Source: Duganella sp. 1224
Lineage (GTDB): Bacteria; Pseudomonadota; Gammaproteobacteria; Burkholderiales; Burkholderiaceae_D
DNA: 64,000 nucleotides
Reading direction: 5' to 3'
Assembly (NCBI RefSeq): GCF_013408245.1
Contig: NZ_JACBYS010000002.1
Location: forward strand, 682,001 to 746,000
The position numbers and the translations under genes were made by a program. Numbering within the stretch: position 1 is the stretch's first letter; each line of letters opens with the position of its first letter. Below, piece after piece: positions 44,497 to 48,723 of the stretch. The notes below the pieces were generated by a model. That model did not search any database. It saw only the letters and a list, made by a program, of their open reading frames with translations, and had not been told where the DNA came from.

Positions 44497-45972
44497 ATGG
44501 ATACTGACATTCTGATTTGCGGCGCCGGCGCCGCCGGGCTGACACTGGCGGTCGACCTCGCGCGCCGCCACATCCCCTTCGTGCTGATCGACCAGGCGGC
44601 GACGCCGTTCGCCGGTTCGCGCGGCAAAGGCATCCAGCCACGCACGCTGGAAATCTTCGAGGCGCTGGACGTGGCCGACCGCATGATCGCCGCCGGTGGG
44701 CGCTATCCGGCCCAGCGCCACTACGCCGCCGATGGCGGCTACCGCGACGAGGCGACCGTGGCCGCCACTGCCGCCACGCCCACCGAGCCCTATGGCGAAC
44801 CGCTGATGCTGCCCCAGCATCTGACCGAAAGCATGCTGCGCACGCGACTGGCGGAGCTGGGCCATGTGCCACGCTATGGCCACACACTGAGCGGCTTTGA
44901 GCAGGATGATGGCGGCGTCACCGCGCGCGTGACCACCGCCGACGGCGAGGTCGACGTGCGCGCGCGCTACCTGGTCGGCGCCGACGGCGGCCGCAGCTTC
45001 GTGCGCAAGGCGCTGGACATCGGCTTCCCCGGCGAGTCGCTGAACGCGCGCGCGGTGGTGGCCGACCTGGCGCTCACTGGTCTCACGCGCGAGGTGTGGC
45101 ACCGCTGGGGAAGCGGCGCGAAGCAGATCAGCCTCTGTCCTTTGCAGGGCACGGACCTGTTCCAATTGCAGATGCCGGTGCCGCTCAACGGACAGGTGGA
45201 CCTGTCGGACGCCGGCCTGGCCGCCGTCATCGCCGAGCGTAGCGGCCGCACAGACATCGTGGTGCAGGCGGTGCACTGGTGCTCCGACTATGCGATGAGC
45301 GCTCGGCTAGCAGACCGCTATCGAGTGGGCCGCGTGTTCATCGCCGGCGACGCGGCGCACGTGCACCCGCCCACCGGCGGCCAGGGTCTGAACACCAGCG
45401 TGCAGGATGCGTGGAATCTCGGATGGAAGCTGGCGGCGGTGCTGCGCGGCGCCGACGACGCGCTGCTCGACACCTATGAAGAAGAGCGCCGCGAGATCGC
45501 CGCCGACATGCTCGGCATGTCCACCCGCCTGCTCGATGCGGCCCGCCAGCGCGGCGACCTGCGGCGCGGCCGCGAACAGCAGCAGCTGGACCTGGGCTAT
45601 CCGGCATCCTCCCTGTCGCTCGACGAACGCGGTGACGATGCGCCACTGCGCGCCGGCTACCGCGCACCGGACGCGCCCTGCGTCGGCGCCGGTGGCCAGG
45701 CGGTGCGCATGTTTTCGCTATTAAGATCAGGCGATTGGATAATGCTGCGCTATGAGCCAGCCACCGCGCCGGTGATCGCGCCGCGCGCTGGCCTGCGCAT
45801 CGTCACCGTGGGCGAGCACGCCGAACTGCGCGACCACCATGGCCACCTGCGCGACGCCTACGGTTTTGCCGCCGGCGACATTGCCCTCGTCCGCCCGGAC
45901 GGCTACCTCGCCGTCCTCACCCACGACGAGCAAAGCCCGGCGCTAACAGCTTGCGTGGAAAAGCTAATATAA
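44497..45972 (+). CDS. FAD-dependent aromatic monooxygenase (PHBH-like fold)
   Basis: A 491-residue class A flavoprotein hydroxylase. It has the dinucleotide loop ILICGAGAAGLTLAVDLARR (residues 5-24), RGKGIQPRTLEIF (about 45-57), the DG motif LVGADGGRSFVRKAL (about 162-176) and the ribityl motif GDAAHVHPPTGGQGLN (about 283-298). The C-terminal thioredoxin-like domain is short. Relatives hydroxylate phenols, resorcinols, antibiotics or polyketides with NAD(P)H; the substrate here is unknown. The MarR regulator and two operators next to it suggest induction by an aromatic compound. AGGAAAG before the ATG is the ribosome-binding site. Confidence 0.88.
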   Translation: MDTDILICGAGAAGLTLAVDLARRHIPFVLIDQAATPFAGSRGKGIQPRTLEIFEALDVADRMIAAGGRYPAQRHYAADGGYRDEATVAATAATPTEPYGEPLMLPQHLTESMLRTRLAELGHVPRYGHTLSGFEQDDGGVTARVTTADGEVDVRARYLVGADGGRSFVRKALDIGFPGESLNARAVVADLALTGLTREVWHRWGSGAKQISLCPLQGTDLFQLQMPVPLNGQVDLSDAGLAAVIAERSGRTDIVVQAVHWCSDYAMSARLADRYRVGRVFIAGDAAHVHPPTGGQGLNTSVQDAWNLGWKLAAVLRGADDALLDTYEEERREIAADMLGMSTRLLDAARQRGDLRRGREQQQLDLGYPASSLSLDERGDDAPLRAGYRAPDAPCVGAGGQAVRMFSLLRSGDWIMLRYEPATAPVIAPRAGLRIVTVGEHAELRDHHGHLRDAYGFAAGDIALVRPDGYLAVLTHDEQSPALTACVEKLI

Positions 45973-46009
45973 TTGCTTTTAACTTTGTTTTTTGATTTTA
46001 AAAGGCAAT

Positions 46010-46321
46010 ATGTTTGACTTTACACTATCGACATCACAGGAAATCTGCGCCGAGCTGGGGCGGAGATTGCGGGCGCGGCGGCTGATGCAGGAGTGGTCGC
46101 AGATGGAGTTGGCGCAGCGCGCGGGATTGTCGGTGGGCACGATCAAGAATATGGAGGGCAAGGGGCAGGCGTCGCTGGAGTCGTTCGTGCAGGTGGTCGC
46201 GGCGCTCGGGTTGGCGGATGATCTGGGTGAGCTGTTCCGCATCCGCATGGTGTCCATCGCCGCCATGGAGCAGGCGGAGAAGGCCAACCGTCAGCGCGCC
46301 CCGCGCCGCTCGGCCACATGA
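46010..46321 (+). CDS. hipB: HipB-like antitoxin / XRE-family regulator
   Basis: A 103-residue Cro/C1-type helix-turn-helix protein: ELGRRLRARRLMQEWSQMEL then AQRAGLSVGTIKNMEGKGQAS (about residues 13-53), with a C-terminal tail rich in Arg/Ala. HipB antitoxins bind DNA and the HipA kinase, repressing the operon. The ATG at 46010 is preceded by AAAAGG, and a TTG 18 bases upstream is less likely. Its stop overlaps the hipA start (ATGA). A perfect TATAAT lies at 45968-45973 over the monooxygenase stop, but no good -35 box is seen. Confidence 0.87.
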   Translation: MFDFTLSTSQEICAELGRRLRARRLMQEWSQMELAQRAGLSVGTIKNMEGKGQASLESFVQVVAALGLADDLGELFRIRMVSIAAMEQAEKANRQRAPRRSAT

Positions 46322-47568
46322 AACTGCTGTCGGTCATGTACAACGGCTGGGGCGAGCATTGGCCGCTCGGCACGCTGGCCGACAATGGTCACGATATCCT
46401 GTTCGAGTACTCGCCCGAGGCGCTGCGGCGCGGGATCGAGCTGTCGCCGCGTCATCTGCCGCTGCGGGTGATCGCCTTCGGCGGCGCACCGCGCCACCAG
46501 CATGGTCTGCCAGGGCTGATCGCCGACTCGCTGCCGGATGGCTGGGGACAGCTGCTGATGGACCGGCTGCGCGGCCAGGCCAGCGTCTCGCCGCTCGACC
46601 GGCTGGCATTCATCGGCGAGCATGGCATGGGCGCGCTGAGCTACTGGCCCGCCTCCGCCCGCGAGCCGGAGCCGGCGCGGGTCGCCTCGCCGGCGTGGCT
46701 TGCAGAGCTGGCCAACGCCGCCCAGGACGTCGGCCGGGGCGAAGCCAGTCCGCTCCTCGGCCAACTGGCCCTGCTCGGCGCGGCGCCGCATGGCACGCGT
46801 CCCAAGCTGCTGCTATCCCTGCCGGACCAGGCCGACGCCCACGGCCAGAGCCACGACCATGGCGGCGCCGAGGCGGATGCCCATGCCGGCAGCGCCGCGC
46901 CCTGGCTCATCAAATTTGCCGGCCACGGCCAGCACAAGGAAGTCTGCGCCATCGAATACGTCTACGCCGAGCTGGCCCGCGCCTGCGGGCTGGAGGTGCC
47001 GGATACCCGCTACTTTGACCTCGACCGCAACCAGGCCGCCTTCGCCAGCCGCCGCTTCGACCGCGAGGACGGCCAGCGCGTGCCGGTGCAGACGCTGGCC
47101 AGCCTGCTGCACGCCAATTTCCGCCTGCCGTCGGTCGACTACGGCACCTTCCTGCGCGCCACCCGCCTGCTGACCCGCGACCAGCGCCAGGTCGAGGCGG
47201 CATTTCAGCGCTGCGTCTTCAACGTCCTGTTTAATCACCGGGGCGACCACGCCCGCAGCATCGCCTACCGCATGAACCGCAAGGGCGACTGGCAACTGGC
47301 GCCCTGCCACGGCCTGGAATTCAGCCACGGCCCGCTGGGCCAGCACCAGATGCCGGTGATGGGCGCATGCGCGGCGCCGGCGCGGGCCGACCTGCTGCGG
47401 CTGGCCGCCGACACCGCCGTGCCGGAGCGCCGCGCGCGCGACCTCATCGCCGCCACGCTCGCCCAGGCCGGACTGTTTGCCCGGCTGGCCCGCGACGCGC
47501 CGATCCGCGCCGGCACAGTCAAAACCATCGCCCAGGCCATCGCCGCCAACCGCGACCGCCTGAAATGA
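46318..47568 (+). CDS. hipA: HipA-like kinase with degenerate catalytic motifs
   Basis: A 416-residue HipA-family protein, normally a Ser/Thr kinase that arrests translation by phosphorylating GltX. The N-terminal subdomain, the nucleotide-loop region GTRPKLLLSL (about 159-168) and the ATP lysine in PWLIKF (Lys199) are recognisable. The catalytic loop is NHRGDHARS (306-314), where relatives usually read NRDDHxRN, and the metal site AYDL is CHGL (330-333, Gly332 for Asp). Asp310 remains, but both metal ligands (Asn, Asp) are lost. A His/Asp/Ala-rich insertion lies at 171-193. It is probably an inactive or altered kinase; the frame is intact with no stop or shift. Confidence 0.85.
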   Translation: MKLLSVMYNGWGEHWPLGTLADNGHDILFEYSPEALRRGIELSPRHLPLRVIAFGGAPRHQHGLPGLIADSLPDGWGQLLMDRLRGQASVSPLDRLAFIGEHGMGALSYWPASAREPEPARVASPAWLAELANAAQDVGRGEASPLLGQLALLGAAPHGTRPKLLLSLPDQADAHGQSHDHGGAEADAHAGSAAPWLIKFAGHGQHKEVCAIEYVYAELARACGLEVPDTRYFDLDRNQAAFASRRFDREDGQRVPVQTLASLLHANFRLPSVDYGTFLRATRLLTRDQRQVEAAFQRCVFNVLFNHRGDHARSIAYRMNRKGDWQLAPCHGLEFSHGPLGQHQMPVMGACAAPARADLLRLAADTAVPERRARDLIAATLAQAGLFARLARDAPIRAGTVKTIAQAIAANRDRLK

Positions 47569-47569
47569 C

Positions 47570-47593
47570 AAAAGCCCCGCAAGCGGGGCTTTT
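47570..47593. terminator. Bidirectional intrinsic terminator
   Basis: Stem AAAAGCCCCGC / GCGGGGCTTTT with a 2-base gap, directly after the hipA stop and 20 bp from the nrdB stop on the other strand. It can serve both convergent genes. Confidence 0.88.
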
Positions 47594-47613
47594 GAACTCG
47601 GGGCGACCGGGCA

Positions 47614-48723
47614 TTAATCCCAGTTCAGCGCGCCGCCGGTCTGGTATTCGATGACGCGGGTCTCGAAGAAGTTGCGCTCTTTCTTCAGGTCGATCATCTC
47701 GCTCATCCATGGGAAAGGATTTTCTTCCTGGTCGAACAGCGCCTCCAGGCCAATCTGGGTGGCACGGCGGTTGGCGATGAAGCGCAGGTAGCCCTTGAAC
47801 ATGGTGGCGTTCAGGCCCAGCACGCCGCGCGGCATGGTGTCTTCAGCGTAGGCGTACTCCAGTTCCACCGCTTTCAGGAACAGCTGCTTGATCTCTTCCT
47901 TGAAGGCCGGGGTCCACAGCAGCGGATTTTCCATCTTGATGGTGTTGATCAGGTCGATGCCGAAGTTGCAGTGCATCGATTCGTCGCGCAGGATGTACTG
48001 GTACTGCTCGGCGGCGCCCATCATCTTGTTCTGGCGGCCCAGCGCCAGGATCTGGGTGAAGCCGACGTAGAAGAACAGGCCTTCCATCAGGCAGGCGAAC
48101 ACGATCAGCGATTTCAGCAGTTTCTGGTCCTGCTCGACGGTGCCGGTGGTGAAGGCCGGGTCGGTCAGCGTGTTGATGAACGGAATCAGGAACTCGTCCT
48201 TGTCACGGATCGACTTAATCTCGTTGTAGGCGTTGAAGATTTCCTGCTCGTCCAGGCCCAGCGACTCGACGATGTACTGGTAGGCGTGGGTGTGGATCGC
48301 CTCTTCGAAGGCCTGGCGCAGCAGGTACTGGCGGCACTCCGGCGCGGTGATGTGGCGGTAGGTGCCCAGCACGATGTTGTTGGCGGCCAGCGAGTCGGCG
48401 GTGACGAAGAAGCCGAGGTTGCGCTTGACCAGGCGGCGCTCGTCCTCGGTCAGGCCGTTCGGGTTCTTCCACAGCTCGATGTCGCGCTGCATGTTGACTT
48501 CCTGCGGCATCCAGTGGTTGGCGCAGCCGGCCAGGTATTTGTCCCAGGCCCATTTGTACTTGAACGGCACCAGCTGGTTGACGTCGGTTTTGCCGTTGAT
48601 GATGCGCTTGTCGTCGGCGTTAACGCGCAGCGCGACCTGCTCGGCCGTGCCTTCGCTTTCCAGCGCGGCTTGGTTGATTTGCGGGGCCGCTGGCGCGGCG
48701 TCTTCGTCCCAGGACAACGACAT
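47614..48723 (-). CDS. nrdB: Ribonucleotide reductase class Ia, beta subunit
   Basis: Holds the diiron-tyrosyl radical cofactor for dNTP synthesis. The 369-residue protein shows [13 protein letters not shown] (about residues 138-150, iron ligands Glu and His) and [13 protein letters not shown] (about 251-263, further ligands). Its C-terminus, ending GGALNWD, is the peptide that docks on NrdA. It starts after AGAGGAA and lies downstream of nrdA with a REP-like repeat in the 126-bp gap. Confidence 0.95.

Follow-up and report, generated by a model that had tools for sequence, protein, structure and literature searches.

A predicted HipA pseudokinase retained beside nrdB in two Duganella species

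The nrdB-linked hipBA locus

The window, that is, the whole stretch of 64,000 nucleotides of Duganella sp. 1224 that was analysed, carries a hipBA gene pair placed between an FAD-dependent aromatic monooxygenase gene and a convergent nrdB, with nrdA beyond nrdB. Among persistence kinases HipA is the founding member, and the purpose of chromosomal toxin-antitoxin modules is still debated. The genes and the features within them that are discussed below are as follows.

44497..45972, plus strand: FAD-dependent aromatic monooxygenase gene, immediately 5' of hipB
45973..46009, plus strand: gap of 37 bp from the monooxygenase stop to the hipB start, where the palindrome of the orthologues is missing
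46010..46321, plus strand: hipB, an HTH protein of 103 aa, overlapping hipA by ATGA
46318..47568, plus strand: hipA-like gene of a predicted pseudokinase (416 aa open reading frame, Pfam domains, AlphaFold2 model)
46780..46785, plus strand: P-loop codons 155-156, Gly-Ser changed to Ala-Ala, the Ser being the position of the autophosphorylated S150 of E. coli
46831..46893, plus strand: His/Asp-rich loop, residues 172-192, of low model confidence, preceding the ATP-lysine strand
47236..47259, plus strand: catalytic loop, residues 307-314, H-R-G-D-H-A-R-S, with D309G at 47242-47244 and N314S at 47257-47259
47308..47313, plus strand: metal-binding loop, residues 331-332, Tyr-Asp changed to His-Gly (from alignment and codons)
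47614..48723, minus strand: nrdB, the syntenic anchor downstream of hipBA, convergent with hipA

The start of hipB has been set from homologues at the ATG at 46010, the listed open reading frame beginning at a TTG at 45992. hipB thus adjoins hipA upstream, encodes an HTH protein and overlaps its partner by ATGA, which is the HipBA gene order. A first-pass annotation, made from the letters alone, had held that the frame, the overlap with hipB and the ATP lysine are all kept, and this is borne out by the uninterrupted 416 aa frame, the ATGA and the presence of K199. Between the convergent hipA and nrdB a G+C-rich inverted repeat followed by T residues can be made out by eye at 47570-47593, with no call from the terminator scanner.

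Membership of the window protein in the HipA family is supported by matches to HipA_C (PF07804; 1.7e-30, 106.7 bits against a cut-off of 30.5) and Couple_hipA (PF13657; 1.6e-15, 57.9 bits against a cut-off of 22.5). An NCBIfam search returned no family for the protein and none of the PADLOC models matches it; a single weak HTH model of PADLOC matches HipB. The AlphaFold2 model was built from nine sequences and has a pTM of 0.76 and a mean pLDDT of 71, with low confidence at residues 43-73, 112-119, 153-159, 172-192 and 265-270. Over its whole length it aligns to E. coli HipA 3dnv_A (Z 29.0, rmsd 3.9, 364 residues), and the best-matching chains are E. coli HipA. Searched alone against the PDB by phmmer the window protein gives no match, and an alignment profile is needed for the pairing with E. 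coli HipA. The His/Asp-rich loop at 172-192 is longer than in the orthologues and could bind metal or be merely disordered.

Catalytic centre and the distribution of its losses

In the window HipA the catalytic loop has the sequence NHRGDHARS and the metal-binding loop the sequence APCHGLEF. In a profile alignment to the solved E. coli structure 3tpd, window positions 309, 314 and 332 pair with D309, N314 and D332, the identical residue numbering of the two proteins being a coincidence. The catalytic Asp309 is replaced by Gly, the Mg-site Asn314 by Ser, the Mg-site Asp332 by Gly and Tyr331 by His, and the P-loop carries G155A together with S156A, the latter at the position that corresponds to E. 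coli S150. The nearest motif-intact orthologues, five loci of the same genus at the same nrdB-linked place (L003-L007; HipA 62-65% and HipB 74-79% identical to those of the window), keep GGSPHGSRPK, [NS]RDDHA[RK]N and CYD[LI], where the window has GAAPHGTRPK, HRGDHARS and CHGL. The loop sequences HRGDHARS and CHGL reported in the first-pass annotation are thus confirmed by alignment to E. coli HipA and to the orthologues, and its statement that the codons GGC, AGC, CAC and GGC each lie one transition from the expected ones is true with respect to the C-ending forms of the motif-intact orthologues (GAC, AAC/AAT, TAC/TAT and GAC in these five). As a general account of the motif changes, transitions suffice for the four named codons only: N307H is AAC to CAC, a transversion, and G155A and S156A had gone unmentioned.

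The nearest named relative is Duganella guangzhouensis, whose orthologue L035 (= L002, G001 C3) encodes a HipA 79% identical to that of the window. D309G, D332G, N307H, G155A and S156A are common to both proteins, and among the motif changes only N314S and Y331H are private to the window, D. guangzhouensis keeping N314 and Y331. Most of the loss is accordingly not specific to the window but common to the two species. Sequencing error was considered and rejected as very unlikely: D309G, D332G and S156A recur in another species, whose assembly is independent. A wrong register, with the second Asp as the catalytic one, was likewise rejected, both by the profile alignment to E. coli HipA and by the invariance of D310 in motif-intact members.

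Outside this pair the catalytic residues are uniformly present. D/N/D occupies the catalytic positions in 51 of 53 aligned HipAs, and those of the window and D. guangzhouensis alone depart from it, so that within this set the departure described in the first-pass annotation is confined to one sister pair. No further HipA with the losses was found in a family-level sample, where D/N/D is present in 90 of 90 loci among the matches listed from 294 genomes searched (30 loci plus 60 chosen down the high-scoring part; 91 rows, L088 appearing twice), nor in a genus sample drawn from a list of 74 genomes, where it is present in 89 of 89 loci (29 new plus 60; 90 rows, one of them the N-terminal L205 piece, which lacks the catalytic columns). 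A number of full-length copies on the genus list, and the majority of its short fragments, fall outside the sample, several of them being in the main aligned set. The two samples, neither of them exhaustive, comprise 179 loci, of which 7 are shared, giving 172 distinct loci by a 300-base core match, and 221 distinct non-window loci when the main aligned set is added. A single-protein scan of the genome contigs with the window HipA found D. guangzhouensis only. The window genome has one PF07804 match at E <= 0.001 and hence no second HipA, and the D. guangzhouensis genome (G001) has five, the substituted copy included. The possibility that the window HipA serves as an inhibitor of a second resident HipA was rejected, as the genome has no other PF07804 match at that threshold.

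The substitutions are not spread evenly over the protein. Of the 92 columns conserved to 93% or more among 31 outgroup HipAs of the subfamily, seven are altered in both substituted proteins, and all but one of these seven fall in the P-loop, the catalytic loop or the metal loop (6 of 18 motif columns against 1 of 74 others, Fisher p 1.6e-4; p 5.5e-4 with the threshold at 90% or more; 2 of 14 against 0 of 39, p 0.066, when only fully invariant columns are counted). Column 313, which is among the six, has Arg in the motif-intact L003 and L009 too. Each protein singly departs at two more conserved columns, and 81 of the 92 are kept in both. With six of the seven joint differences in motif loops, the loss is concentrated on phosphotransfer.

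These residues differ in what they say about activity. Passages of PMC3376134, citing earlier work, report that S150A, D309Q and D332Q each abolish growth arrest by E. coli HipA, and four kinase motifs are described as conserved in the HipA families treated in the relevant part of PMC8262856. The P-loop Ser at the S150 position is present in 29 of the 31 outgroup HipAs. Two loci with intact catalytic motifs, L042 and L046, lack it (GGVPHG and GAAPHG, respectively), so that the phospho-switch is not universal in the subfamily. Since Ser to Ala in the Legionella relative HipT leaves toxicity, according to a passage of PMC10653801, and some Hip kinases have no serine at the P-loop position, according to one of PMC8262856, S156A alone is no proof of inactivity. 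Loss of the Asp base together with both metal ligands is the stronger evidence, and on the basis of these residues the window HipA is very probably catalytically dead.

Ancestry, selection and the upstream region

The order FAD monooxygenase ... hipBA-nrdB-nrdA is common to the window species and D. guangzhouensis, and their HipBs are 96% identical. The two copies are sisters in the hipA, hipB and nrdB trees (support 1.00, 0.996 and 0.87), a claim limited to this pair since the hipB tree puts L003 elsewhere, and this sister grouping implies that the losses most simply occurred once, before the species split. Horizontal replacement was rejected, the three trees agreeing on the sister pair and the locus being syntenic. 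A survey of the genus genomes with a hipA match at E <= 1e-30 placed hipBA or its remains beside nrdB in 9 of 74 genomes: the five motif-intact loci, the two full-length loci with the losses and two deletion remnants. One remnant, L012 (G027), matches hipA residues 69-357 and hipB residues 52-100 only, and the other, L015 (G030), keeps hipB but of hipA just the final 157 or so residues. A further damaged copy of the subfamily, L014 (G007, C2:127443-128480), lacks approximately residues 236-301 in one open frame.

Constraint on the two substituted copies was estimated by codon branch models on seven orthologues, run with our own codon likelihood code. For hipA, omega is 0.102 in the background and 0.315 on the stem of the pair, and the tips of the window and D. 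guangzhouensis have 0.129 and 0.083, respectively. Tests against an omega of 1 are significant on the window tip (2dlnL 22.9, p 1.7e-6), on the D. guangzhouensis tip (p 3.8e-9) and, weakly, on the stem (p 0.033), and the stem differs from the remaining branches (p 9e-4). The dN/dS estimate that had been suggested as a check on the window gene therefore shows purifying selection. In residues 141-416 the stem omega is 0.55, not different from 1, and that of the tips 0.109; in residues 1-140 the values are 0.25 and 0.10. No such stem effect is seen in hipB (p 0.59) or nrdB (p 0.38). Across 16 simulations the estimator returned values near the truth (stem 0.17-0.41 for a true 0.3 and 0.05-0.13 for a true 0.1; tips 0.81-1.16 for a true 1). 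Since hipB is a small gene its rates are loose, with an omega of 0.035 in the clade of the pair against 0.12 in the background and omega = 1 on the sister tip rejected only at p 0.047. By the pairwise NG86 method hipA has a dN/dS of 0.114/0.461, or ~0.25, and the neighbouring monooxygenase gene a similar 0.128/0.483. The picture is of relaxed or altered constraint during the loss of catalysis, followed by renewed constraint on the dead HipA. That this HipA is retained by selection, in a state seen in only two species, is well supported.

The region upstream of hipB in the window differs from that of most of the orthologues. Six other nrdB-linked loci have a full-length hipBA, and an imperfect 26-bp palindrome precedes hipB in five of these (L035 and L004-L007), L003 being the exception. 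The remnant L015 has it as well. The palindrome begins 53 bp 5' of the hipB start and has 8 to 11 of 13 pairs matching, the best being that of L004, TTAAGGAGTAAGATCTTAATCATTAA, and its position and symmetry make it a putative HipB operator. In six of the nine genomes searched (G001, G014, G021, G052, G004 and G030) it occurs once, at hipB, and it is absent from G000, G044 and G027. It is missing upstream of the window hipB, and the 6.1-Mb window genome has no site for it at <=3 mismatches. Nor does the window contain a match to the spaced dyad TTAAG-N9-CTTAA, and scanning of 45850-47660 for sigma-70 promoters and for terminators gave no call. The window stretch upstream of hipB aligns to the others no better than shuffles do (10 to 90% score as high); ungapped, it shares 34 of 60 bases with L035, which itself shares 27 to 37 with the others. 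Because the putative operator is absent, classical autoregulation appears unlikely in the window genome, and another operator might be present in the window. However, L003 has intact kinase motifs and yet also lacks the palindrome, so that its absence is no proof of lost regulation and is not tied to the loss of the kinase. The first-pass proposals of a possible pseudokinase in an intact hipBA operon and of retained DNA-binding regulation with HipB thus stand in part: the pair is frame-intact and activity is predicted to be lost, but with the palindrome gone both the integrity of the operon and the retention of such regulation are doubtful.

In L035 about 1 kb with a divergent YhcG/DUF1016 nuclease gene lies between the monooxygenase gene and hipB. 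This PDDEXK nuclease gene (L035 4525-5550), which matches the PADLOC models PDC-S02, is also found upstream of hipB in L003, at 78% identity, and L015 has a relative of it on the other side, downstream of the hipA remnant; none is present at the locus in L004-L007 or in the window. On the simplest reading the region would have been lost in the window lineage, and hipBA of the window may be co-transcribed with the monooxygenase gene.

Interpretation and comparison with known systems

We consider it likely, with a probability of roughly 0.65, that the window HipA is a retained pseudokinase, likely acting as a non-enzymatic structural or regulatory partner of HipB. In the ancestor of the window species and D. 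guangzhouensis a chromosomal nrdB-linked hipBA would have lost catalysis, both Asp changing to Gly, and with it the phosphoserine position of the P-loop, Ser changing to Ala; both species have kept the fold, the ATP lysine and the 81 strongly conserved columns, and in both the gene has since been under purifying selection. Such a HipA would fold, bind HipB and act without kinase toxicity, perhaps by stabilising HipB or by altering the DNA binding of the HipA-HipB complex. Partnership with HipB is the simplest role to propose, given the strong conservation of HipB and the preserved fold of HipA. In the window species hipBA is directly behind the monooxygenase gene, without nuclease gene and palindrome, and its expression may follow that of the monooxygenase. 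The fuller version, in which a domesticated natural HipA pseudokinase has had its phosphotransfer centre and phospho-switch selectively dismantled, is conserved as a HipB partner and has been rewired to the monooxygenase gene in one species, seems a little better than an even bet; it would leave a nominal "toxin-antitoxin" pair whose function is solely regulatory or structural.

The alternative that deserves most attention, although an unlikely one, is a dead toxin gene in slow decay, in which catalysis went by drift, the apparent conservation reflects too little time or a cost of misfolding, and the window copy is the more advanced. The stem omega of residues 141-416, compatible with 1, would suit this, as would the private N314S and Y331H, the absent palindrome and the deletion remnants L012 and L015 at the same nrdB-linked place in two other species; decay of chromosomal toxin-antitoxin modules and the rise of inactive toxin mutants by drift are also described in part of PMC7167474. 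Yet both tips are constrained over a dS of ~0.44-0.48, with neutrality rejected for each, neither copy has a frameshift or stop, and the decay in the two remnant species took the form of deletion. A retained pseudokinase therefore appears the most likely reading over a decaying toxin. A different target of selection is proposed by anti-addiction, in which HipB is the selected partner, neutralising active HipA toxins that arrive on mobile elements, with the disarmed HipA either tolerated or serving to stabilise HipB. The lower tip omega of HipB than of HipA (0.019 against 0.106) and its higher identity between the species (96% against 79%) agree with this, and passages of PMC7167474 treat loss of function in chromosomal toxins and the competition of chromosomal with plasmid modules. 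It is nevertheless improbable, since the purifying selection on HipA, in residues 141-416 as elsewhere, is left unaccounted for, and the window genome, with no second PF07804 match at E <= 0.001, offers its HipB no resident HipA target.

That the window HipA is still an enzyme, with Asp310 or another acidic residue as base, or with ATP used for other chemistry without the usual metal residues, is very unlikely. Atypical kinase-fold enzymes exist, and K199 and D310-H311 are retained. But the window protein retains neither the general base nor either of the metal ligands, and its D310 is not newly acquired: all members of a 24-sequence alignment have it, the motif-intact ones included, and in the profile alignment it pairs with Gly310 of E. 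coli. Moreover, either D309Q or D332Q alone abolishes E. coli HipA function, as given in a passage of PMC3376134.

No natural HipA pseudokinase was found among the papers listed on inactive toxin-antitoxin toxins, HipA mutants, phylogeny, corepression and anti-addiction, a weak negative given thin coverage of subscription papers. The conversion of kinase to pseudokinase is familiar in eukaryotes, and the retained pseudokinase proposed here, if true, would be a bacterial case of it. A kinase-dead HipA kept by selection would separate HipB binding and the architecture of the DNA complex from toxicity, and the dead pair and the motif-intact orthologues at the same locus would constitute a natural separation-of-function pair.

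The window pair shares with the type II HipBA modules of E. coli and Shewanella the hipB-hipA order and overlap, the two-domain HipA (Couple_hipA plus HipA_C) with its whole-length fold, and the HTH HipB. Unlike these modules, it lacks the catalytic Asp, the Mg Asn and the Mg Asp, has Ala for the P-loop Ser and has no recognisable upstream operator. The laboratory kinase-dead forms of HipA, D309Q and S150A (PDB 3tpt and 3tpb), are both among the top fold matches of the window protein, which is substituted at the same positions; in contrast to these engineered single changes, several natural losses occur together in the window HipA and are kept across two species. The decaying chromosomal module ccdO157, as known from part of PMC7167474 and from general background, resembles the window pair in that the toxin is inactivated and the module stays on the chromosome, but differs from it in that the predicted inactive toxin of the window is under purifying selection.
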